Of a stretch of DNA of 58,461 nt, positions 15,501 through 29,911 are shown one piece after another. The position numbers and the translations under genes are program-made. The first letter of the stretch is position 1. The number at the start of each line of letters is the position of its first letter. Source of the stretch: Candidatus Dormiibacterota bacterium (GTDB lineage Bacteria; Chloroflexota; Dormibacteria; Aeolococcales; Aeolococcaceae); NCBI GenBank assembly GCA_036495095.1, contig DASXNK010000037.1:1-58461 (forward strand). The letters run 5' to 3'. Under the pieces are notes generated by a model that was not told the origin of the DNA, did not search any database, and worked only from the letters and a program-made list of their open reading frames with translations.

Positions 15501-18158
15501 CTACCAGAGCAGGCGGAGCACCAGCCCGAGCAGCCCACCGGAGCTGGTCCTGGGCGCCGCCGGAGCGGGGCCGCCGAGGCTGATGGGGATCCCGAGGATG
15601 GTCAGGCTCGGAGCCGGCGCCCCGGGGACAGGTGCGGCCGCGCCCAGGCCCGGCACCGGCAGCGCGGGGAGGGGGAGGGGCAGCGGCACCGGGAGGGGCA
15701 GCGGTGCGGGCGCCGCCGAGGGCACCCTGGCCGGTGCCGGCGCGGCGCTGCCGCAGGGCAGGGCGGCGGCGTCGTTCTGGCCGCCGCCGGCGTCCACGGT
15801 GAGGTTGAGGGTCGCCAGCTCCAGCGAGGTCACGCCATAGGGATAGGCGAGGCGCGCCCCCGCGGGCGGGTTGCCGGCGTTCGCCAGCGGCACGTCCACC
15901 TCGACGAGGCCCGGCTTGCCGGGCACGATCCGGCCGGCGTCGACGTGGGTCGCCGCGGCCTTGCCGCCGCCGACGCTCCCGTCCTCGAAGGTGGCGGCGC
16001 CGGTGCGGTCGATCTTCGTGTGGGCGTACCAGGTGGTGCCCGCGTAGGTCCAGTAGAGGGTGTAGTCGGCGGCCTGCGAGATCGACGGCACCTGGCCGGT
16101 GAGGTCGGCGACGGTGAGCACCGCGCGCAGGGTGGTGCCGTCGGGGCTGAGGTCGAGCTCGCCGCGGGTCAGGTCCATCTGCGGGATCGGCGCCGCGGTG
16201 AGCGGATCGGTGGCGTTCCCCGGCGCGGTCACGAACGCGGGTCCGCAGGGGGTGGCGAGCACCGGGTCGGGCACCGCGGGCGGCCCGGTGGTGACCGCCG
16301 GGGCGGTGGTCCCGGTGATGTCCCGCATCAGGTTGCCGAGGTTCGGGGTGCCGAAGCCGCTCACGTAGTCCCAGCCGGCGCCGGCGACGTTGAGGCCGTT
16401 GGTGCCCAGGGTGATGTCGTGGAAGTCCTGGGCGTAGTGCGAGCTGGTGCCCTTCGCGTAGAGGAGCGGGTTGGCGAAGCCGAGGCCGTGCGCCTGGTCG
16501 GGGGCGGCCGCCTGGATGCGGGTCCACATCCCCAGCCACAGCGGGGCGGAGAGGCTGGTGCCGCCGGAGGTGCCGGGGATCATGTCGGTGACGACGGTGT
16601 AGCCGTTGCTGATCACGTCACCGGAGAGGGCGCTGACATCGGGGAGCCCGCGACACATGGTGCCGGGGGTGAAGATCTGCAGCAGGCCGCTGCCGATCAG
16701 GCAGGGGTGGTTCACGGCGCTCACCCCCTTCTGGTAGTCGGGCCGGGGAATGAAGAGGGCGGAGCCGCCGCCGCCGAAGGGCCAGGCGTACTCGAGCGCG
16801 CGCTCCTTCGGGCTGGTGCCCTGCTTGGCGTAGAGGACGGTGCCGCCGACCGCGACCACGTACCGGCTCGCCGCCGGGTAGTTGGCCAGCGGGACGACCT
16901 GGTTCAGGACACCGTTGCCGGCGCCGACGATCGGGAGCACCGCGATCGGGCAGGAGGAGCCGGTGTCGCCGGTGGAGACGAAGAGGGTGCGGCCCTCGAG
17001 GGTGCCCTGGAGCAGGGTCTGCTCGGCGACCGGCTCGAGGTTGTTGCCCAGCGCCTGGCCGGCGTTCGGCAGCGGGTTGGCGATCGGGTTCCCGAGCAGG
17101 AAGTTGAGCGGGTTGGTCTCGCACTCGCCGAACGAGGCGCTCGCCTGGCGGGGACCGTTGGGGTCGCTGACCCAGGTCGAGAACATCGTCGCGACGTCGG
17201 CGTCGCTGAGCGAGGCGCCGAAGTAGAGCTGCTCCTGGCGGACCAGCGGAGCCATGCCCGTGCTCGCCTGGGTGTCGAGGTTCCACTCGCCCTCACCGGA
17301 ATTGTCGTTCCACGGGCCCGGCCCGGTGTGCTTCACCACCACCGGCACGTGGGGCAGGTGGTTCAGGTCCTCGAAGCGGCGCAGGTTGGCCACCACCGGG
17401 TCGGTCGCCCCGGCGCCGAAGATCGCCATGGTCTGGCCCTGGCCCTGGTTCTCGGCGGGCTGCTGGTAGAGCGACCACAGGTCCTGGGGCGTGTAGCTGT
17501 CGGTGTAGAGGCCGGCGGGGGCGGGGGTGGCGCCGAGCCGGGTCCGCGCGCTCGCGGCCGACGTGGTGCTGTGCGGCGTGGAGAAGTGCTGGAGGGTGTT
17601 GAGCCCGACGATCGAGATCACCCCGAGGCCGCCGGGCACGCTCGGCGCCCGGTCGTTGGCGAGGAAGCTGGTGCCCCCGGCGCTGTAGGAGCGCACCGTG
17701 GTGCCGAGCAGCCGGTCCAGCTGGCCGACGGCGCCGACCGCCTCGATGAAGGTGCCGCCGGAGCCGACGTGCTGGACCTCGAGCCCGGCACCGTGGAGCC
17801 AGGCCACCGCGGCCGAGACCCGCTCCGGCGATACGCCGAACCTCGAGGCGACCTGCTCGGGGGTGAGGAACCGGTGGTAGAGGGGGCTGGCCGGGTCGTA
17901 GAGGGCGGTGAGGAGCGCCTGCTCGCCGGCCGGGTCGGAGGGGGCGAGGCCGACGCCGATGTGGAGCGGCGTCGACGCCGGGGGCAGGGCCTGGGCGACC
18001 AGGCTGTCGAGGCCCGGAAGCAGGTTCTGGGCCAGCTGGACCACCGCGGGAAGGGGCGGCCCGTCGAGGACGGCGGCGTGGAGGTTCGCTGCGCCCGCCA
18101 CCAGGATCCCGGTGGCGACGACGGCGGTGAGCGCTCGACGAAGCGGTCCTCTTGCCAT
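15501..18158 (-). CDS. S53 (sedolisin/kumamolisin) family peptidase, secreted
   Basis: An 885-residue exported acid-type serine-carboxyl peptidase. A signal peptide (about 1-29) is followed by the pro-kumamolisin activation domain (about 60-210), with SPLYHRFLTPEQVASRFG typical of that domain. In the catalytic domain, the Glu and Asp of the triad lie in GEGEWNLDTQA and the nucleophile in GTSGGTSLSAPLW. The oxyanion Asp is probably in the FVSTGDTGSS region. After about residue 640 comes a beta-rich domain of about 120 residues, then a Pro-rich tail ending in a short hydrophobic segment (GGLLGLVLRLLW), which may tether it to the envelope. It is divergent from the AsnC regulator. Confidence 0.92.
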   Translation of the reverse strand: MARGPLRRALTAVVATGILVAGAANLHAAVLDGPPLPAVVQLAQNLLPGLDSLVAQALPPASTPLHIGVGLAPSDPAGEQALLTALYDPASPLYHRFLTPEQVASRFGVSPERVSAAVAWLHGAGLEVQHVGSGGTFIEAVGAVGQLDRLLGTTVRSYSAGGTSFLANDRAPSVPGGLGVISIVGLNTLQHFSTPHSTTSAASARTRLGATPAPAGLYTDSYTPQDLWSLYQQPAENQGQGQTMAIFGAGATDPVVANLRRFEDLNHLPHVPVVVKHTGPGPWNDNSGEGEWNLDTQASTGMAPLVRQEQLYFGASLSDADVATMFSTWVSDPNGPRQASASFGECETNPLNFLLGNPIANPLPNAGQALGNNLEPVAEQTLLQGTLEGRTLFVSTGDTGSSCPIAVLPIVGAGNGVLNQVVPLANYPAASRYVVAVGGTVLYAKQGTSPKERALEYAWPFGGGGSALFIPRPDYQKGVSAVNHPCLIGSGLLQIFTPGTMCRGLPDVSALSGDVISNGYTVVTDMIPGTSGGTSLSAPLWLGMWTRIQAAAPDQAHGLGFANPLLYAKGTSSHYAQDFHDITLGTNGLNVAGAGWDYVSGFGTPNLGNLMRDITGTTAPAVTTGPPAVPDPVLATPCGPAFVTAPGNATDPLTAAPIPQMDLTRGELDLSPDGTTLRAVLTVADLTGQVPSISQAADYTLYWTYAGTTWYAHTKIDRTGAATFEDGSVGGGKAAATHVDAGRIVPGKPGLVEVDVPLANAGNPPAGARLAYPYGVTSLELATLNLTVDAGGGQNDAAALPCGSAAPAPARVPSAAPAPLPLPVPLPLPLPALPVPGLGAAAPVPGAPAPSLTILGIPISLGGPAPAAPRTSSGGLLGLVLRLLW

Positions 18159-18890: not shown

Positions 18891-20393
18891 ATGGCCGATC
18901 CACTGGTGGCCGGGCTGCTCGGGAAGACCCTGCACCTGCTCGGGCTGCCGGTGCCCCACACCCCCGCGCTCGGCGCCGTGCGCGCGCCGGCCCAGCCCGC
19001 GGCCGCGCCCGCGCCGGTGGCGCCGCTGGACGCCCGCCGCCGGGTCGCCCGGCTCTTCGCCCGGGCCGGATTCGGCGCCACCGTCGCCGAGATCGACCAG
19101 TGGGCGGCGGCAGGCTACACCGCCACCGTCGATCACCTGCTCGGCTTCGCCAGCTCGGCGGGCCGCGCCGACGACCTCGAGGTGATGGCGCTGCAGGAGG
19201 TCGCCCAGAGTGGCGACGCCAACAACCCGACCCCCCAGCCGTATCAGCGCTGGTGGCTGCAGCGGATGGCCACCACCCCCAACCCGCTGGAGGAGAAGCT
19301 GACCCTCCACTGGCACGGCCACTTCGCCACCGGATTCGTCAAGGTGCGCCGGCTGGAGCTGATGATCGGCCAGAACCGGCTGCTCCGCAGCCAGGCCGCC
19401 GGCGACTTCCGGGCGCTCTGCAAGGCGATCACCGCCGATCCGGCGATGCTGATCTGGCTCGACGGTGACACCAACCGCAAGGGCAGGCCGAACGAGAACT
19501 ACGGCCGCGAGTTCATGGAGCTGTTCAGCCTCGGCCACGACGCCGGCTACACCCAGGGCGACGTCCGCGAGGCGGCGCGCGCCTTCACCGGCTACACCGT
19601 CGACAAGCAGGGCGCCGTCGCCTTCAACCCCGCCCTCCACGACGCCGGGCCCAAGACCCTCCTCGGCCAGACCGGACCATGGGGCGCGGGCGACGTCGTC
19701 GACATCGTCCTCGACCGGCATCCCCAGGGACCGGTGGCCGCCAACCACGTGGCCCGGCGCCTCGCCGGCTTCCTCCACCGTCCCGACCCGGAGCCGCAGG
19801 TGGTGCAGGCGATGGCCGAGGCCTTCGTCGCATCGAACTACCAGGTCAGGCCGATGGTCCGCGCGCTGCTGCTCCGCCCGGAGTTCTCGGACGGCGCCGC
19901 GCGCACTATCAAGTCGCCCGCCGAGCTCGTCGCCGGCACCATCCGCGGGCTCAACCTCGCCCGCGGTGACGGTGCCCTGGGCTACGTCGAGTCGCTGCTC
20001 GGCCAGCCCGGCAACAGCACCGCACCCAACGACCTGCTCGCGGAGGAGTGCACCAGGATGGGGCAGGTCCTCTTCGATCCGCCCAACGTCGCCGGCTGGC
20101 ACGGCGGCACCGCCTGGGCGAACACCGCCACCCTGCTCGCCCGCTACAACTTCGCCGCCCGCGCCGCGCAGCTGGTCACCGACGACCAGCTCGGCGCCCT
20201 GCTCGACGGCACCCCGGCCCCGGCGCCGCAGCCGTGGATGCTGCGGCTCGGCCTGCTCGACCTGCTGCCCGCGACCTCCGCGGCGATCAGCGGCTACGTG
20301 GCCGCGGCACGCGCCGCCCACGCCGACGACAAGACCGTGGCGCGGGGCGTGCTCACCCTGCTTCTCGCCTCGCCCGACTACAACCTGCGGTGA
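18891..20393 (+). CDS. DUF1800 family protein
   Basis: A 500-residue protein of the DUF1800 family, which is widespread in environmental bacteria and of unknown function. Family hallmarks are LFARAGFGATVAEID near residue 55, EEKLTLHWHGHFATGF, NENYGREFMELFSLG, and YTQGDVREAARAFTGYTV. The segment LFDPPNVAGWHGG near the end is also typical. A Pro/Ala-rich linker covers about 25-45. I see no certain signal peptide, although the N-terminus is mildly hydrophobic. It is directly followed by a DUF1501 gene, the usual genetic partner of DUF1800; the pair is thought to work together on an exported or envelope process. Confidence 0.93.
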   Translation: MADPLVAGLLGKTLHLLGLPVPHTPALGAVRAPAQPAAAPAPVAPLDARRRVARLFARAGFGATVAEIDQWAAAGYTATVDHLLGFASSAGRADDLEVMALQEVAQSGDANNPTPQPYQRWWLQRMATTPNPLEEKLTLHWHGHFATGFVKVRRLELMIGQNRLLRSQAAGDFRALCKAITADPAMLIWLDGDTNRKGRPNENYGREFMELFSLGHDAGYTQGDVREAARAFTGYTVDKQGAVAFNPALHDAGPKTLLGQTGPWGAGDVVDIVLDRHPQGPVAANHVARRLAGFLHRPDPEPQVVQAMAEAFVASNYQVRPMVRALLLRPEFSDGAARTIKSPAELVAGTIRGLNLARGDGALGYVESLLGQPGNSTAPNDLLAEECTRMGQVLFDPPNVAGWHGGTAWANTATLLARYNFAARAAQLVTDDQLGALLDGTPAPAPQPWMLRLGLLDLLPATSAAISGYVAAARAAHADDKTVARGVLTLLLASPDYNLR

Positions 20394-20398
20394 CGACC

Positions 20399-21688
20399 AT
20401 GCGGATCACCCGACGCCACCTCCTCCGGCTGGGCGGCACCCTGGGAGCCGCCACCGTGATCGCCCCGATGTGGCTCGACGCCGGCGCGCTGCACGCCGCG
20501 GCCGCCGGGGCCACCCCGAGCAGCGGCCGCAAGCTGATCGTCATGCTCCTCGCCGGCGGCAACGACGGGCTCAACACCGTCGTCCCCTACGGCAGCGGCG
20601 ACTACTACGCCAGGCGTCCGCTCATCAACATCCCGCAGGCGAAGGTGCTGCCCCTGCCCGGCAGCCCCGGGGTCGGCCTCCATCCGAACCTGGTGAAGCT
20701 GCAGTCGCTCTACCAGCAGGGGCGGGTCGCGATCGTCCAGGGGGTCGGCTACGACAAGCCCGATCTCTCGCACTTCGGCTCGATGGACATCTGGCAGTCG
20801 GGCAACCCCGCGGTGCGGCAGGGGTCGGGCTGGCTGGGCCGGTACCTCGATCGCACCCCCGGGCGGGGCGGCGCGCTGCGCGCCGTGAGCATCGGCAACA
20901 GCCTTCCGAAGGCGCTCACCGGCGAGCAGACCAGCGGCGTCGCCATCTCCTCGCTCGGGGGCTTCCACTTCGACGACGGCGCCGACGCGCCCGGCAGCGA
21001 GGCGGCGCGCCTCCACCAGGGCTACCTCGACTGCTGCAGCGGCACCAGCGGCGACCCCGCCACCGACGCGCTGCTCAGCGGCGGCCGGACCACCGTCGGC
21101 GCGGTGCGCGCCATCGCCGCGCTCGCCCGGGGGGCGACCCCGGGGACGGGGACGCTCGCCGACCAGGTGGCCACGGCGATGACCCTGCTCACCTCCAACC
21201 TCGGCGTCGAGATCGCCATGGTGACCCTGGGGAGCTTCGACGACCACGCCGCGGAGAATCCCAACCACGACCGCCTGCTCGGACTCGTCGACGCCGCCAT
21301 CGGGCGCTTCCACGACCTGGCGCTGGCGACCGGCCACCCCGAGCAGTACCTGCTCATGACCTTCTCGGAGTTCGGGCGCCGGGTGAACGAGGACGGCAGC
21401 GGCGGCACCGACCACGGCACCGCGGCCCCGATGCTGCTCGTCGGCGACGGCGTGGCCGGTGGCCTCCACGGCGTCCAGCCCTCGCTCTCCAGCCTCGACA
21501 AGGACGGCAACATGGTGCGCGCCGTCGAGCTGCGCGAGGTGTACGCCACCGTGCTCGAGGGCTGGCTGGCGGGACCGCCGGCGGGCTCGTTGCTCGGCTA
21601 CGGAGCCGGCGACGGCATCACCCCGGTGCGCTTCCTGCGCTCGGCCCCGTCAGTGGCGGGGACGGCCCATCCGGCGCTCGCCTCCTGA
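20399..21688 (+). CDS. DUF1501 family protein with Tat signal
   Basis: A 429-residue exported protein of the DUF1501 family, which is related in fold to alkaline phosphatase/sulfatase proteins. The N-terminus TRRHLLRLGG is a twin-arginine (Tat) signal, so it is exported folded. Family motifs include LIVMLLAGGNDGLNTVVPYG, HPNLVKLQSLYQQGRVAIVQGVGY, HFGSMDIWQSG, MTFSEFGRRVNEDGSGGTDHGTAAPML and GVQPSLSSLD. ATG 20399 is used; GTG 20390, which overlaps the DUF1800 stop as GTGA, would add three residues. It forms an operon with DUF1800. Tat export suggests a bound cofactor or metal, but the function is unknown. Confidence 0.93.
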   Translation: MRITRRHLLRLGGTLGAATVIAPMWLDAGALHAAAAGATPSSGRKLIVMLLAGGNDGLNTVVPYGSGDYYARRPLINIPQAKVLPLPGSPGVGLHPNLVKLQSLYQQGRVAIVQGVGYDKPDLSHFGSMDIWQSGNPAVRQGSGWLGRYLDRTPGRGGALRAVSIGNSLPKALTGEQTSGVAISSLGGFHFDDGADAPGSEAARLHQGYLDCCSGTSGDPATDALLSGGRTTVGAVRAIAALARGATPGTGTLADQVATAMTLLTSNLGVEIAMVTLGSFDDHAAENPNHDRLLGLVDAAIGRFHDLALATGHPEQYLLMTFSEFGRRVNEDGSGGTDHGTAAPMLLVGDGVAGGLHGVQPSLSSLDKDGNMVRAVELREVYATVLEGWLAGPPAGSLLGYGAGDGITPVRFLRSAPSVAGTAHPALAS

Positions 21689-21691
21689 GGG

Positions 21692-22327
21692 CTACGCCGG
21701 CACCGCGTCGAGGATGCGGTCGTGGGAGCCGTCGGGGTAGGCGGTCTCGCAGGTCTGGAACTGGGCGACCACGTTGCCGTTCGCCAGCGGCGGCACGCCG
21801 TCGTCGCGCAGCCAGTTGTCGCGCACCTCGACGATGCGCAGCCGGTGGGCGGCGCCGGTGCTGTCGTACCAGGTGATGATCGAGCCGACGCCCAGGTCGA
21901 GCAGCGGGGTGAAGACGCCGGCGTTGTGGCCGACGAAGTAGGTGCGGCCGCCGACGCAGGTGTCGACCGCCGCGCTGACGTGGGTGAGCTCGGTGGCGCC
22001 GCTGCAGTCGGAGTAGGTGGTGACCGTGGTGTCCAGGCTGCCGTCGCCGCTGCGCAGGGTGTTCGCCGGCCCGGAGGGCAGGGTGATGACCACCGGGAGG
22101 CTGCCGATGGCCGGGGTGGCGGCCGGGGCGGGCAGCGCGACCGACCGGGCGGCGGAGTTGGGGCTGGCCGCGGCGACCCGCGTGCCGGCGCCGGTGACCC
22201 AGAGCGACCCGGCGGTGACGGAGGCGATCAGCGCGGCGCCGAGGAGGAGGTTCGAGCCGGGCCGGAGGCGGCGCGGCCGGGGGGTCTCCAGGGTCTCGCT
22301 CGCCGGCGCGGTCGTCTCCGGGGCCAT
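21692..22327 (-). CDS. Sortase-like transpeptidase (class E/F type)
   Basis: A 211-residue single-pass protein with a TM segment at about 25-46 and an extracellular domain. The sortase catalytic residues can be placed in order: H134 in YFVGHNAGVF, C193 in FQTCETAY and R204 in SHDRIL. FTPLLDLGVGSIITWYDSTGAAHRLRIVEVR matches the strands between His and Cys in sortases. Two further cysteines (108, 124) might form a disulfide. The TLxTC motif is reduced to FQTC, so it is a divergent member. Its mRNA leader carries a c-di-GMP-I riboswitch and an SD-containing hairpin. The candidate substrate is the TPTTG-ended protein at 14584-15321. Confidence 0.65.
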   Translation of the reverse strand: MAPETTAPASETLETPRPRRLRPGSNLLLGAALIASVTAGSLWVTGAGTRVAAASPNSAARSVALPAPAATPAIGSLPVVITLPSGPANTLRSGDGSLDTTVTTYSDCSGATELTHVSAAVDTCVGGRTYFVGHNAGVFTPLLDLGVGSIITWYDSTGAAHRLRIVEVRDNWLRDDGVPPLANGNVVAQFQTCETAYPDGSHDRILDAVPA

Positions 22328-22354
22328 GACAGCATCCCTCCGAGCTGTCGGCCC
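22320..22354 (-). promoter_or_regulatory. Hairpin enclosing the ribosome-binding site and start codon
   Basis: In the sortase mRNA GGGGCC-GACAGC pairs with GCTGTC and, after an AU bulge, GGCCCC of the first codons. The 10-base loop contains GGAGGG, the Shine-Dalgarno sequence, and AUG falls at the base of the inner stem. This should restrict ribosome access. Just upstream, CTGCCA (22376-22371, part of the aptamer) could pair with TGGCAG (22360-22355), an alternative stem that would break the aptamer. Confidence 0.6.
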
Positions 22355-22362
22355 CTGCCAGT

Positions 22363-22447
22363 GACTTCATTGGCAGCCCGGCCATCTCCTGTCGAGACCC
22401 GAGGCTTTGCGTCCCCTCCTCGCGGAGGGTTTGCCCTTTCCGAAGCC
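22363..22447 (-). ncRNA. Cyclic di-GMP-I (GEMM-I) riboswitch
   Basis: On the minus strand the leader of the sortase gene shows the conserved GEMM-I blocks in order. The closing stem GGCTTC (22447-22442) pairs with GAAGTC (22368-22363). GGCAAACC is at 22435-22428, followed by a P2-type hairpin CCTCC-GCGA-GGAGG with a GNRA tetraloop. GGGACGCAAAGCC ends at 22403. The short stem TCTC/GAGA follows, and TGGCCGGGCTGCCA (22384-22371) is the tetraloop-receptor side. Spacing and invariant bases match the class. It should sense c-di-GMP and control translation or transcription of the downstream gene at 22327. Confidence 0.9.
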
Positions 22448-22582
22448 GACACCGGCACCGTAGGCCCGCAACGCGGACGGATCTCGCCGCGCCGCCGCCC
22501 TGTCACCAGGGAATCACCCCTGTGTCCGCCCCTGAACAATTCTTGACGGCGGGGGACCCTCCGGCCCGCTCCCGGGGTCCGG

Positions 22583-23658: not shown

Positions 23659-24486
23659 ATGTCGCGTCAGCGCCCTCCGGCAGCACTCGACGAGGTGGTC
23701 GGCCGCCTCCAGCGCCGTCACGGTCACGCGGCGGTGCGGTGGGGAGGCGACCCCGTCACCGCCGCGGCGTGGTCGACGGGCATCCCCGTCCTCGACGGGG
23801 TGCTTCCCCAGGGCCTCCCCTGCGGCCGGATCTCCGTGCTCACCGGCGAGCGGGGGCGGGCGACGGGACGGCTCACCCTCCTCCAGGCCTTCGCCGCCCG
23901 GGCCAGCCGGAGCATGGCGGTGGCCTACGTCGACCTCGCCGGTACCCTCGACCCCGGCTTCCTCGCCGACCTCGGCGCCGACCTCGACGCCTGCTACGTG
24001 GTCCGTCCCCCCGGGGGGGCGCTGGGGCCGGGGCTGGCGATGGCCCGGACCCTGGTCGCCGCCGGGGTGCCCTGGCTGGCGGTCGCCCTGGGGAGCGCCG
24101 CCGGGCGTGAGCGGGGATGGGAGCACGCCCTCTCCGCGCTGGTGGGCGCGGTCCAGGGGCGGGGGGCGGTGGCCTGCGTCTCCGCGCCCTCGCCACCGGC
24201 GGCGCCGCTGGCCCATGCCTCGTCGCTCACCGTCGCCTGTGCGCCGCTGAACTGGCAGCTGGCGCACGGCGACGTCACCGGGCTGCGGGTGCGGCTGACG
24301 GTGGTGAAGTCGAAGCTGGGCGGGGTGGGGGAGGAGGCGGCGCTGCTGCTCCGCTATCCCCGCCCCCACGCCGCCGCCGAGGTGGTGGGGCTGCCCGCGG
24401 TGGTCGAGGAGCTGCCCGTGCAGCCGGCCGCCGCCGCCGCCGCCGCCGCCACTCCGCTCCCCGCCTCGCCCGCGCTCGCGGGCTGA
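23659..24486 (+). CDS. imuA': ImuA'-type RecA-like mutasome protein
   Basis: A 275-residue RecA-fold protein without RecA's usual ATP site. Where RecA has a Walker A GxxxxGK[ST], this protein reads GERGRATGRLT (about 61-71), lacking the lysine. STGIPVLDGVLPQGLPCGRISVL is the typical approach to that loop in the ImuA family, and AYVDLAGTLDPGFLADLGAD and VRLTVVKSKLGG fit the RecA-like core. The C-terminus is an Ala-rich tail including eight consecutive alanines. ImuA' binds ImuB and supports translesion synthesis with DnaE2. It is the first gene behind the LexA box. Its ATG directly follows GAGAGGAG, an unusually tight spacing. Confidence 0.85.
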   Translation: MSRQRPPAALDEVVGRLQRRHGHAAVRWGGDPVTAAAWSTGIPVLDGVLPQGLPCGRISVLTGERGRATGRLTLLQAFAARASRSMAVAYVDLAGTLDPGFLADLGADLDACYVVRPPGGALGPGLAMARTLVAAGVPWLAVALGSAAGRERGWEHALSALVGAVQGRGAVACVSAPSPPAAPLAHASSLTVACAPLNWQLAHGDVTGLRVRLTVVKSKLGGVGEEAALLLRYPRPHAAAEVVGLPAVVEELPVQPAAAAAAAATPLPASPALAG

Positions 24487-24491
24487 TCCCG

Positions 24492-25724
24492 GTGCCCCGC
24501 ATCCTCTGCGCCCACTTCGACCACCTCGGGCTGCTGGCCGCGTGGCAGCGCCACCCCGAGCTGCGCACCGAGGCGGTGATCGTCGGCGGCGCGCCGGTGC
24601 TGCGGCTGCCGGTGCTCGCCGCCTCGCCGGCCGCCCGGGCGGCGGGGGTGCGTCCCGGCCAGCCTCTCCGCCAGGCGCAGCAGCTCTGCCCCCAGGCGGT
24701 GTTCGTCGACCTCGACGTCGTGGCCGCGGCGCGGCTGCGCGAGGCCGCGCTCGGCGAGCTCTGCGCGGTGGTGCCCTCGGTGGAGATGGGCGACGAGCAG
24801 GCCTACGCCGACCTCGGCGGCCACCACGCCCAGCACCCCGGCGAGGCCGCCTGGGCCGCGGCGGCGGCGCGGGCGCTCACCCGGGGGCTGGGGACCGCTC
24901 CCGCGGTGGGGGTCGCGGGCTCGCGCTTCACCGCCTGGATGGCGGCGCGGGTGAGCACCCCACGGCACGTCCGCCGGGTCCGCCCCGGCGAGGAGGCGGC
25001 CTTCCTGGCGCCGCTGCCGATCGGCCTGCTGCCCGTCGACGCCGCCATCCTGGCCCGGCTCGGCACCCTCGGGCTCGACTGCCTGGGCGCCGTCGCCGCG
25101 CTCTCGCCCGCCGACCTCGGCCGCCAGTTCGGTGGCGACGCCGGCCAGGCCATCCACCGCTATGCGCGGGGCGAGGACGAGGCGCCGGTCACCCCCGCCA
25201 CCGCTCCGCGGACGCTGGTGGAGCGGCTGGTCATCGAGGGCGGTGCCGCCGACCGCGAGCTGCTGAGCCGCTGCGCCGAGCGCACCTGCCGCATCCTCGG
25301 CGCCCGGCTGCGCGAGCGCGGCCTGTCGGCGGGGCGGGTCGGCCTCGTCCTCGAGGGCGAGGCGGGGCCGGTGGCGGCGGGCACCCGCGTCCCCCCCGCC
25401 CCGGCCGGCTCCGCCACCGAGCTGTGGGCCACGGTGCTCGGGCTGCTCGGCGCCCTCGAGCCCACCGGACCGGTGGCCGGTCTCCGCATCGAGGTGGACG
25501 AGCTCTCCACCGCCTCGGGGCGCCAGGTCGAGCTCTGGCGCCGCGGCGACGCCGAGCGCGACGCCGTCGCCAGCGCCGTGGCCCGTCTCCAGGACCGCTT
25601 CGGCACCGCCACGGTGGTGCGGCCGCGGCTCACCCTCGACCCCGGCGACGTGCCCGAGCGCCGCTTCACCTGGGAGCCGGCGGCCCCGGTCCCGGTCGTG
25701 GTGGCCGGGCGGTCAGGGAGATGA
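24492..25724 (+). CDS. imuB: ImuB, Y-family DNA polymerase-like mutasome adaptor
   Basis: A 410-residue Y-family polymerase homologue, which in known mutasomes is catalytically inactive and links DnaE2 to the sliding clamp. The N-terminus RILCAHFDHLGLLAAW aligns with the palm start (HVDMDxFFA) but keeps only the first Asp. The later motif GDEQAYADL appears to put Glu-Gln where active enzymes have Asp-Glu. The thumb and little-finger regions follow (LGLDCLGAVAALSPADLGRQFG). GTG 24492 lies 3 bases past the imuA' stop. It overlaps the next small gene as ATGA. No clear beta-clamp motif was picked out by eye near the C-terminus. Confidence 0.9.
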   Translation: MPRILCAHFDHLGLLAAWQRHPELRTEAVIVGGAPVLRLPVLAASPAARAAGVRPGQPLRQAQQLCPQAVFVDLDVVAAARLREAALGELCAVVPSVEMGDEQAYADLGGHHAQHPGEAAWAAAAARALTRGLGTAPAVGVAGSRFTAWMAARVSTPRHVRRVRPGEEAAFLAPLPIGLLPVDAAILARLGTLGLDCLGAVAALSPADLGRQFGGDAGQAIHRYARGEDEAPVTPATAPRTLVERLVIEGGAADRELLSRCAERTCRILGARLRERGLSAGRVGLVLEGEAGPVAAGTRVPPAPAGSATELWATVLGLLGALEPTGPVAGLRIEVDELSTASGRQVELWRRGDAERDAVASAVARLQDRFGTATVVRPRLTLDPGDVPERRFTWEPAAPVPVVVAGRSGR

Positions 25725-25975
25725 CCGAGCTGCTCGACGCGGGGGAGGGGGAGCAGGTGCGCGTCGCCGCCGACGGCAGCCCCACCGCGGTGCGCACCGG
25801 CGGGGGGTGGCGGGCGGTCACCGGAACCGTCAACCGCTGGGTCGTGGAGACCGACTGGTGGCGGGTGCCGGTGCGCCGCGAGTACCGCCGCTGCCTGGTG
25901 GCCGGGGGCGACTGCCTGGAGCTGTGCCGTGAGCTCGACACCCTCCGCTGGACGGTGGTGCGTCGCTATGACTGA
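25721..25975 (+). CDS. DUF6504-like small protein of the mutasome operon
   Basis: An 84-residue protein whose ATG overlaps the imuB stop as ATGA, so it is translationally coupled to it. WRAVTGTVNRWVVETDWWRVPVRREYRR, followed by a C-terminal strand (LDTLRWTVVRRYD), resembles the DUF6504 proteins found next to imuB/dnaE2 genes in Actinobacteria, where a Trp-rich strand pattern is typical. No enzymatic motif is present. By position it should be a co-regulated accessory factor of the mutasome; its role is not known. Confidence 0.75.
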   Translation: MTELLDAGEGEQVRVAADGSPTAVRTGGGWRAVTGTVNRWVVETDWWRVPVRREYRRCLVAGGDCLELCRELDTLRWTVVRRYD

Positions 25976-26223
25976 GCCTGACACCGTGCCCCGGGCCGCC
26001 GGAGTGCCCCGCCGGGGAGGGGCCGGCGAGGTTCGGCGGCCGGGACACGGCCGGTCGCGTGCTGGCGGGAGTGCTCGTGGAGCGGCGGTCCAGCCCCTCG
26101 GGCCGACGGCGGACGGGATGGGGGGTGCAGGGGAAGGGGGTGTGGATGGGGGTGTCCGGCCGGGGCCTCACTCCGCCTCCTCCTCGCTGCGCTCTGTTCG
26201 ACAGCAAAACGACTGGTACGGAG

Positions 26224-26229
26224 TATACA
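26224..26229 (+). promoter_or_regulatory. Candidate -10 of dnaE2 (possibly leaderless)
   Basis: TATACA at 26224-26229 ends 7 bases before GTG 26237, so transcripts could begin at or next to the start codon. The 25976-26236 gap is otherwise without a convincing gene, and I found no full LexA box in it, so dnaE2 has its own promoter or is read from the upstream operon. Confidence 0.4.
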
Positions 26230-26242
26230 CGGAAAAGTGGTG

Positions 26243-29200
26243 ATGTCAACCGGCTTCGCCGAGCTCGCCGCCCGCTCCCACTACTCCTTCCTCGACGGCT
26301 CCTCGTCGCCCCGCGAGCTGGTCGCCGCCGCTGCCGCCGCCGGGCTCGGGGCGCTCGGGATCTGCGACCGCAACGGCCTCTACGGCGCGGTCGCCCTCGT
26401 CCACGCCGCCCGCGCGGCCGGCATCCACCCCGTGATCGGGGTCGAGCTCGACCTCGCCGGCGGCAGCCGGCTGCGCCTCATCGCCCGCAGCTCGCGGGGC
26501 TACCGCCAGCTCTGCCGGGCGGTGAGCGCCGCCCAGCTCGCCGGCGAGAAGGGCCAGCCCCGGCTGCGCATCGCCGGTCTCGCGAACCCCGAGCCCGGGC
26601 CCGCCCCCGCTCCCCGGCAGCCGCCGCCCCCGGAGCGCCCGGCGGCGCTGCGCACCACCGCCGGGCCCTTCCCCGAGGGCTGGCCGTCGCTGCCCTCCAC
26701 CCGCCGTCCCGCCACCGGTCCGCCCGCGGTGCTCGACCCCGCGGAGCTCGACGGCTGCACCGTGCTCGCCGGGGGCCCGGAGTCGGAGATCACCGCCGCC
26801 CTGCTCCGCGGCGACCGCCGCGGAGCAGGGCACGCCGCCGACCGGCTGCGCGAGGCCTTCGGTCGCGACCGCGTGGTGCTGCTGCTCACCCACCACCTCC
26901 ATCCCGCCGACGGCTGGCTGGTGGCGGAGACGGCGGCGCTGGCACGGCGCTGCGGGCTGGCGGCGGTGGTCTCGAACACCCCCGTCCACGCCGCCGCGGC
27001 GGACAAGCCGCTGCTCGACCTGCTCACCGCCATCCGCCATCGCACCACCCTCGACCGCGCCGCCGCCCACGGCCTGCTGCTGCCCAACGCCGAGCATCGG
27101 GTCAAGTCCGAGGTGGAGATGCGCGCCCTGCTCGGCGAGCATCCCGAGGCCTTCGACCATGCCGCCCATGTCGCCGCGCAGTGCAGCGTCGCGCTCGACT
27201 TCAGCGACGTGCGCTTCCCCGGCTTCGCGGTGCCCGAGGGCGAGACCCCACTCTCGGCGCTGCGCCGGCTCTGCGAGGAGGCGCTCCCCGGCCGCTACCG
27301 CCCCGTGACCGAGCCGGTGCGGGCGCGGCTGCGGCGTGAGCTCGGGGTGATCGAGACCACCGGGCTCGCCGAGTTCTTCCTCATCACCTGGGACATCATG
27401 CGGTTCGCCCGCGAGCGCGGCATCCCCGGACAGGGGCGGGGGAGCGCCGCCGACAGCATCGTCGCCTACCTGCTGGGCATCACCCGGGTCGACCCGGTGG
27501 AGCACGACCTGCTCTTCGAGCGCTTCCTCCACGAGGACCACCAGGGCACGCCCGACATCGACATCGACTTCTCCACCGAGCACCGCGAGGAGGTGATCCA
27601 GTACGTCTACGACCGCTACGGCGCCGAGCGCACCGGCATGGTCGCCAACATCGTCACCTTCCGGCCGCGGATGGCGGTGCGCCAGGTGGGGGCGGCGCTC
27701 GACGTCCCCGAGCCGGTGATCGACCGCCTCGCCAAGTCGGTGGGCGCCTGGCACATGGGCAGCGTCGGCGACGTCGTCGCCGCCGCCGGCCTCGACCCCG
27801 GGGAGATCACCGAATCGCTGCCCTGGACGCACTTCCTCGACCTGCTGCAGCGCATCGAGGGGTGCCCCCGGCACCTCGGCATCCACGTCGGCGGCATGCT
27901 CGTCACCGGGGCGCCGCTGATCGACGTCGCCCCGGTGGAGCGGGCCACCATGCCCGGGCGGGTGGTGGTGCAGTTCAACAAGGACGACGTCGAGGACCTC
28001 GGCCTCATCAAGATGGACCTGCTCGGGCTGCGTACCCTGAGCGCCATCAAGGAGTGTCTCGACCATGTCGAGGCCGTCACCGGCGAGCGCCCCGACCTCG
28101 ACGCGCTGCCCCTCGACGACCCGCGCGTCTACGACGTGATCTGCGCCGCCGACACCATCGGCCTCTTCCAGATCGAGTCGCGCGCCCAGCAGCAGTCGCT
28201 CCACCAGTCCCAGCCGCGGGTGTTCAACGACCTCATCGTGCAGGTGGCGATCATCCGGCCCGGCCCCATCCAGGGCAACGCCGTCAACCCCTACCTGCGC
28301 CGCCGCCAGGGACTGGAGCCGGTCACCTACCTGGATCCGTCGTTGGAGCCGATCCTGGCCGAAACCCACGGGGTGGTGCTCTACCAGGAGCAGATCCTGC
28401 GGATCGTCATGGAGGTGGCCGGCTACAGCGCCGGCGAGGCCGACCGCTTCCGCCGGGCGATGAACCGCCACCGCTCGCGGGTGGAGATGGCCGAGCTCCA
28501 CGACGAGTTCATCACCCGCTGCGTGGCCCGGGGTATCCCTGCCGAGGTCACCGGGGAGATCTTCAAGGCGGTGGCGGGATTCGCCGTCTACGGCTTCTGC
28601 AAGAGCCACGCCGCCGCCTTCGCGCGCACCGCCTACGAGACCGGCTGGCTGCGCCTCCACCATCCCGCCGCCTGGCTCTGCTCGCTGCTCAACGCCCAGC
28701 CGATGGGCTTCTACCACCCCTCGGTGCTGGTCGAGGACGGCAAGCGGCATGGCACCTGCACCCTGCCCGTCGACGTGGGCCGCAGCCGGGCGCGCTGCAC
28801 CCTGGAGTGGGTCGGGGAGGGCGCCCCGCCGGCCGGCGCGGTGGCCGCCGGGCTGGCGCCGGGATGGCGCGTGGAGGAGGGTGCGGTGCGCCGCGACCCG
28901 GCGTCGCGACCGCCCACCGCCGGTGAGCGCGCCGCCGTGGCCAGCCGCCGCCGGCCCCGCAGCGGTGGCGGCGGGCTGTCGGACTGGGCGGTGCGGCTCG
29001 GCTTCGCCTACGTCCGCGCCCTCGGTCCCGAGGCGCGGGCCCGCTGCGAGGAGGCCGCGGTGGCCGGCGCCGGCTCGGTGGCGGAGTTCTGGCGGCGCAC
29101 CGGCCTGCCCCGCCCGGCGATGGAGAACCTGGTCATGGTCGGCGCCTTCGACGGGGTCATGCCCGGCCGGCCGCGGCGTGCCCTGCTCTGGGAGCTGCGC

Positions 29201-29911
29201 GCCGCCGAGGACGGGGTCTCGCGGCGGCCGCGGTCGGCGGCCGCCCCAGGCCCCGGTCCCATCGCCATCACCGGTCCTCCACGGGGTCGCGGCGCGATCG
29301 CCGGGCAGCGACCCGGCGACGCCGTGCGCACCGCGCCGCCCGAGCCGCCGCCGCCGCCGCTGCTGATCGCTCCCGCCACCGCACCGCCGCTGCCGCCGAT
29401 GGACGAGCGCGAGAGCACCGCCGCGCAGTACCGCATCAGCGAGCTGAGCACCGGCCCGCACCTGGTGGCCCACCTGCGCGAGCCGCTGCGCGCCCTCGGC
29501 TGCACCCCGCTCGGCGAGGTCGCCGGGCTCGCCGACGGCACCCGGCTGCGGGTCGGCGGCCTGGTGATCGCCCGCCAGGCGCCGATGACCGCGAAGGGGT
29601 TCCGCTTCTTCACCCTGGCCGACGAGGGCGGCCACCTCGACCTCATCCTCCGGCCGCCGGTGGTGCGGCGCACCCGCAGCGTCGCCAACTTCCATCCCCT
29701 GCTGCTGGTCGACGGGCGGCTGCAGTCGCAGTCGGGCCGGCTCAACCTGATCGTCGAGCAGGTCCGCGCCCTCGACTCCGAGGGACGGCTCATCGATGGC
29801 CGCGTCGCCGCCCTCGGCGGTGGCGCCCACCCCGCCGCACCGCGGTCCCAGCACGGCCACACCCGTCCCGTCGCCGGCTGGGAGGCTCCCCCCGCCCACG
29901 ACTTCCACTAG
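26243..29911 (+). CDS. dnaE2: Error-prone DNA polymerase III alpha subunit DnaE2 (ImuC)
   Basis: A 1222-residue replicative-fold polymerase that performs mutagenic bypass with ImuA' and ImuB. The PHP domain starts at once (ELAARSHYSFLDGSSSPRELV, ICDRNGLYGAV). The catalytic acidic motif is PDIDIDFS (about residue 440), preceded by GQGRGSAADSIVAYLLGITRVDP. Conserved FQIESRAQQQ, AIIRPGPIQGNAVNPY and YGFCKSHAAAFA follow. A C-terminal OB domain (LRVGGLVIARQAPMTAKGFRFFTLADEGG) is present. It is longer than the usual 1050-1100 residues because of Pro/Arg-rich inserts at about 110-150 and 985-1060. GTG codons at 26237 and 26240 are alternative starts. Confidence 0.96.
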   Translation: MSTGFAELAARSHYSFLDGSSSPRELVAAAAAAGLGALGICDRNGLYGAVALVHAARAAGIHPVIGVELDLAGGSRLRLIARSSRGYRQLCRAVSAAQLAGEKGQPRLRIAGLANPEPGPAPAPRQPPPPERPAALRTTAGPFPEGWPSLPSTRRPATGPPAVLDPAELDGCTVLAGGPESEITAALLRGDRRGAGHAADRLREAFGRDRVVLLLTHHLHPADGWLVAETAALARRCGLAAVVSNTPVHAAAADKPLLDLLTAIRHRTTLDRAAAHGLLLPNAEHRVKSEVEMRALLGEHPEAFDHAAHVAAQCSVALDFSDVRFPGFAVPEGETPLSALRRLCEEALPGRYRPVTEPVRARLRRELGVIETTGLAEFFLITWDIMRFARERGIPGQGRGSAADSIVAYLLGITRVDPVEHDLLFERFLHEDHQGTPDIDIDFSTEHREEVIQYVYDRYGAERTGMVANIVTFRPRMAVRQVGAALDVPEPVIDRLAKSVGAWHMGSVGDVVAAAGLDPGEITESLPWTHFLDLLQRIEGCPRHLGIHVGGMLVTGAPLIDVAPVERATMPGRVVVQFNKDDVEDLGLIKMDLLGLRTLSAIKECLDHVEAVTGERPDLDALPLDDPRVYDVICAADTIGLFQIESRAQQQSLHQSQPRVFNDLIVQVAIIRPGPIQGNAVNPYLRRRQGLEPVTYLDPSLEPILAETHGVVLYQEQILRIVMEVAGYSAGEADRFRRAMNRHRSRVEMAELHDEFITRCVARGIPAEVTGEIFKAVAGFAVYGFCKSHAAAFARTAYETGWLRLHHPAAWLCSLLNAQPMGFYHPSVLVEDGKRHGTCTLPVDVGRSRARCTLEWVGEGAPPAGAVAAGLAPGWRVEEGAVRRDPASRPPTAGERAAVASRRRPRSGGGGLSDWAVRLGFAYVRALGPEARARCEEAAVAGAGSVAEFWRRTGLPRPAMENLVMVGAFDGVMPGRPRRALLWELRAAEDGVSRRPRSAAAPGPGPIAITGPPRGRGAIAGQRPGDAVRTAPPEPPPPPLLIAPATAPPLPPMDERESTAAQYRISELSTGPHLVAHLREPLRALGCTPLGEVAGLADGTRLRVGGLVIARQAPMTAKGFRFFTLADEGGHLDLILRPPVVRRTRSVANFHPLLLVDGRLQSQSGRLNLIVEQVRALDSEGRLIDGRVAALGGGAHPAAPRSQHGHTRPVAGWEAPPAHDFH

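Follow-up and report, generated by a model that had tools for sequence, protein, structure and literature searches.

A c-di-GMP-I riboswitch before a sortase-like gene of a Dormibacteria genome, and its likely action as a translational OFF switch

Pili, flagella, matrix proteins, and sortase substrates are known to be switched by c-di-GMP. In a 58,461-nucleotide stretch of DNA from Candidatus Dormiibacterota (contig DASXNK010000037.1; hereafter, the window), a sequence-only reading had placed a c-di-GMP-I (GEMM-I) aptamer on the minus strand directly before a gene for a sortase-like protein. This arrangement raises a question: does the second messenger act on the enzyme of surface anchoring itself, and if so, in which direction?

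Identity of the aptamer and its expected ligand

The whole window was searched with cmscan. The c-di-GMP-I-GGC model of Rfam (RF03167) was matched over its full length (model positions 1–80) with a score of 70 bits (E = 1.5e-14; gathering score, 59 bits), and the c-di-GMP-I model (RF01051) matched the same site with 67.7 bits, against a cut-off of 35 bits. The alignment to the model contains the GCGA (GNRA) loop and the junction motifs, and 40 nt separate the end of the aptamer from the ATG of a gene encoding 211 amino acids. These matches, both above the gathering threshold, are the check that the sequence-only reading had proposed, and they confirm its claim of an aptamer in this position. 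The span that it had assigned to the element, 22320–22447, does enclose the aptamer, the linker, the Shine-Dalgarno sequence, and the start codon, but it cuts the outer 5′ strand (22445–22450) and leaves the predicted −10 box outside (Table 1). Because the folding energy of the aptamer alone is ordinary for its composition (z = −1.1), the evidence for it comes from the covariance models and from comparison, not from energy.

Table 1. Features of the leader and of the downstream gene, in window coordinates
Feature	Position	Strand	Evidence
211-aa membrane-anchored or secreted sortase-like protein; candidate catalytic residues H134, C193, R204	21692–22327	−	AlphaFold, Foldseek, profile, Pfam
Sequestering hairpin SEQ: GGGGCCGACAGC paired with GCUGUC-AU-GGCCCC around Shine-Dalgarno sequence and start codon	22320–22355	−	Folding energy vs. 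shuffles
Shine-Dalgarno sequence GGAGGG, 8 nt before ATG	22336–22341	−	Read in sequence
GGGGCCGAC: P0 3′ strand, which also contributes to the SEQ 5′ strand	22347–22355	−	
GAAGUC: P1 3′ strand	22363–22368	−	Covariation in homologous leaders
c-di-GMP-I aptamer: P2, P3, junction pocket G20/A47/C92, GCGA tetraloop	22368–22444	−	RF03167, RF01051, pocket nucleotides
GUCGGCUUC: predicted transcript 5′ end; 5′ strand common to P1 (GGCUUC) and P0	22442–22450	−	
Predicted −10 box TACGGT	22457–22462	−	TANNNT upstream of GUCGG in homologous leaders

Clan competition in Rfam ranks RF03167 first, which could be taken to mean that the RNA is a GGC-variant riboswitch that recognizes a different ligand or has an altered specificity. 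Our reading of the model consensus, GACGCGAAGCC, is that the name “GGC” stands for G20/G47/C92, i.e., that a G replaces the canonical A47. The window RNA reads GACGCAAAGCC, with A at this position, as do the homologues wherever they could be read in register; further, the lead of RF03167 is small and is not due to the A47 position. The top-ranked variant was therefore rejected, and we regard such an assignment as very improbable. The pocket nucleotides G20, A47, and C92 (aptamer positions 10, 37, and L-5) form the canonical set in the window and in nearly all of the homologues. In published work, the key pocket of c-di-GMP-I riboswitches comprises G20, A47, A48, and C92 (PMC3764141), and A47 is required for ligand binding (PMC9049102). 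Given the canonical pocket and these published requirements, we expect, on the basis of the nucleotides present, that the aptamer is an ordinary c-di-GMP sensor. The genome contains 23 GGDEF domains.

Two other aptamers of the c-di-GMP-I type depart from the canonical pocket at G20. The one at L023 (1501–1575; genome G016) carries an A in this position, a change that also occurs in GEMM-Ib (cGAMP-type) riboswitches, and its ligand may be altered. The one at L030 (1501–1575; genome G001) carries a C.

Competing helices and the direction of the switch

Three helices compete in the leader. P1 (GGCUUC:GAAGUC) closes the aptamer; four of its pairs are changed on both sides among homologous leaders, and none of 500 shuffles reached its covariation score. 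P0, formed by GUCGGCUUC and GGGGCCGAC, is the alternative to P1 for their shared 5′ strand, and its 3′ strand is shared in turn with the hairpin SEQ, which encloses the start site. The folding energy of SEQ (−24.8 kcal/mol; z = −3.95) was matched by none of 200 shuffles. The covariation of P0 is weak: a single pair shows substitutions in both strands, and 128 of 500 shuffles reached its score; however, P0 is nearly invariant in the leaders, and covariation thus says little about it. Slid controls, the sole control to favor P0, were at most 55% paired, compared to 94% for P0. P0 exceeds in length its counterparts from shuffled leaders (median helix score, 20.5 vs. 12.6 ± 0.7).

Of 19 homologous leaders, 15 carry a TANNNT box at a distance of 6 or 7 nt upstream from GUCGG (background, 0.0009 per position). 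From this spacing, we conclude that the transcript probably starts at GUCGG (GUCGGC in the window). Reading of the sequence between the aptamer and the gene disclosed no T run, as would be expected of an intrinsic terminator; translational control was therefore assumed. The cost of opening the start site, calculated from the predicted transcript start, was 15.9 kcal/mol in the window leader when P1 and SEQ were formed and 7.8 kcal/mol when P0 was formed; the respective medians over 17 leaders were 11.2 and 7.8 kcal/mol. The median difference between the two states was 4.1 kcal/mol, vs. 1.4 ± 1.0 kcal/mol in shuffles. As the leaders are related to one another, comparisons with shuffles overstate their independence. 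Three of the 17 leaders lacked the lower opening cost with P0. P0 and P1 plus SEQ were nearly balanced in energy, but this balance was no better tuned than in shuffles and is given no weight here. Plain folding did not settle the matter: the start hairpin dominated in most leaders, whether or not P1 was constrained.

P1 competes with P0 for one strand, and P0 with SEQ for another. A P1 stabilized by ligand should therefore release the P0 strand to SEQ, and it is from this arrangement that we infer an OFF switch. In the absence of ligand, the 5′ strand would pair with the P0 3′ strand, holding it off the start codon and allowing translation. Binding of c-di-GMP would lock P1, such that P0 could not form; the freed strand would then pair around the start site, burying the Shine-Dalgarno sequence and the AUG, and translation would stop. 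With moderate confidence, we propose that the small secreted sortase-like enzyme is controlled at the level of translation by a canonical c-di-GMP-I riboswitch, which most likely turns its synthesis off upon binding.

An initial reading of P0 as part of an ON switch was dropped when P1 and P0 turned out to share their 5′ strand. Nevertheless, c-di-GMP often switches surface genes on, not off, which counts against the OFF reading; an ON switch would fit the usual role of the second messenger in sessile surface functions. The overlap of P0 and P1 on the 5′ strand is only partial, and a combined fold can be drawn in which a shortened P0 (GUCGG:CCGAC) and the P1 of the c-di-GMP-bound RNA stack on each other. 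The GGCCGAC strand would thereby be kept from the start codon, and translation would occur at high c-di-GMP levels. With P1 formed, however, the shortened P0 is ~5–15 kcal/mol less stable than SEQ in most leaders, although a difference of this kind would generally be expected of overlapping helices. We thus consider an ON switch unlikely and retain the OFF switch as our preferred reading.

The sortase-like product

Is the product of the downstream gene a sortase? In the protein, a linker joins the N-terminal hydrophobic segment to the C-terminal domain. In its AlphaFold model, the core has pLDDT values greater than 90, and the top PDB matches found with Foldseek were exclusively sortases (E = 5e-6; probability, 1.00), which supports a predicted sortase β-barrel fold. 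When the PDB was searched with a profile of 26 family sequences, class A sortases were likewise matched (E = 5e-4). In the window protein, H134, C193, and R204 align with the catalytic residues of class A sortases, and the first two are invariant across the 26 sequences. The label “sortase-like” is thus upheld by the predicted fold and the aligned residues, and the protein may act as a transpeptidase. It differs from class A sortases (e.g., 7f87 and 3rcc) in having 11–17% identity to them, in reading FQTC where they have TLxTC, and in having no known substrate. NCBIfam offers no family name for it.

The protein could instead have a sortase fold without transpeptidase activity, in which case the switch would control something besides covalent anchoring. 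The match to the Pfam Sortase family (PF04203) is weak, at 16.6 bits against a curated cut-off of 26.6 bits (E = 0.007). The arginine is not invariant in the family; it is replaced by leucine in a riboswitch-linked homologue (L048). No LPXTG-type anchor (PF00746) in the genome scored above the cut-off, and the family has an additional conserved cysteine pair (C108 and C124). The invariant histidine and cysteine, aligned together with the arginine to the class A catalytic residues, argue against this reading, and we judge it a minority possibility, albeit an appreciable one. According to the sequence-only reading, a direct link to a sortase would mean that surface anchoring itself is switched. 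The riboswitch does stand before a sortase-like gene; because of the sub-threshold Pfam score, the loss of the arginine in the homologue, and the lack of an LPXTG-type anchor above cut-off, the switching of surface anchoring itself is no more than plausible.

Other genes in the window were also noted. On the plus strand, a DUF1800/DUF1501 gene pair occupies 18891–21688, close to a pro-kumamolisin peptidase gene (15501–18158, minus strand). At 23659–29911 (plus strand), genes for a RecA-like (ImuA-type) protein and a DnaE-type polymerase flank an apparent ImuB-like frame; the region looks like an ImuA-ImuB-DnaE2 mutagenesis cassette, although the intervening frame that was searched against Pfam had no match.

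Recurrence in Chloroflexota and relation to known systems

The genome has seven riboswitches of the c-di-GMP-I type. Four of them are followed by sortase-like genes that are paralogues of one another; one is the window gene, and the products of its three riboswitch-linked paralogues are 47–53% identical to the window protein. The remaining three riboswitches precede a TadE-like gene, a gene for a sigma-70 region 4 protein, and a putative short ORF. None of the nine listed riboswitch coordinates coincides with the nine places of canonical sortases. Among relatives (Chloroflexi MAGs, where named), the link was found in two of the same genus (G001 and G002, the latter carrying an orthologue of the window gene, L034) and in one of another genus (G010); no such motif was found ahead of the homologues from the rest of the family and class. 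The riboswitch-linked proteins cluster on the tree: their label requires two changes, and none of 500 shuffles had as few. A copy in G254, a genome of another family, was left out of the count, as it lies on a near-identical small contig that is probably misbinned.

Several further loci were observed. The same riboswitch type stands ahead of genes for CAP/SCP-like secreted proteins at L015, L016, and L027 (judged by eye) and for TadE-like pilus proteins at L003 (by Pfam) and L031. Another sortase-like paralogue, L066 (G000:C17:3851-4528), is interrupted by an in-frame TGA, and no riboswitch motif was found in its upstream region.

A similar pairing occurs elsewhere in the phylum. In Chloroflexota family f8, c-di-GMP-I aptamers, often in tandem, lie directly before sortase_YLP (NCBIfam NF053836) genes in at least 11 of the 12 genomes that have the gene (G064, G076, G131, G203, G262, G285, G292, G365, G369, G406, G414, and G419; loci L144–L155). 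These also encode small, secreted sortase-fold proteins, but of a different sortase family (profile similarity to the window's family, E = 9.5e-6 over 74 columns), and their leaders, often with two aptamers, are unlike that of the window. The link between a c-di-GMP-I riboswitch and a sortase-like gene is thus supported by its recurrence in the genome, in its relatives, and, with sortase_YLP genes, in family f8.

The aptamer of the window shares its full structure, G20/A47/C92 pocket, GNRA tetraloop, and position before a secreted-protein gene with known c-di-GMP-I riboswitches (RF01051/RF03167). It differs from them in its sortase-like target and in the three-helix platform of P1, P0, and start hairpin, which is common across the lineage. 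In Clostridioides difficile, c-di-GMP riboswitches likewise govern covalent surface display, acting on the sortase substrates CD630_28310 and CD630_32460 and on the protease ZmpI (PMC6200980, PMC6366702); there, substrates and protease are switched, whereas at the window locus it is the sortase-like enzyme itself. Open-access papers that link c-di-GMP riboswitches with sortases in Bacillus reportedly deal with collagen-binding adhesins. In the open-access literature, to which our search was confined, we found no description of a c-di-GMP riboswitch that has a sortase gene as its target. The riboswitch itself belongs to a known class; the novelty appears to lie in sortase genes as its repeated target.

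The pairing in relatives and elsewhere in Chloroflexota suggests that c-di-GMP controls the machinery that attaches proteins to the cell surface. We tentatively propose, as a view slightly short of evenly balanced, that sortase-fold enzymes of at least two families in Chloroflexota are recurrently placed under the dedicated control of c-di-GMP-I riboswitches, such that the second messenger sets the amount of the anchoring enzyme and not that of its substrates; in the lineage of the window, this control would be a translational OFF switch exerted through the P1/P0/start-hairpin relay. Because it recurs with two sortase families, the link can be tested, and other members of the regulon, such as TadE-like and CAP-like secreted proteins, offer a lead to sortase substrates. 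If a sortase-fold enzyme is indeed under the control of c-di-GMP, a whole class of surface display would be placed under one signal.
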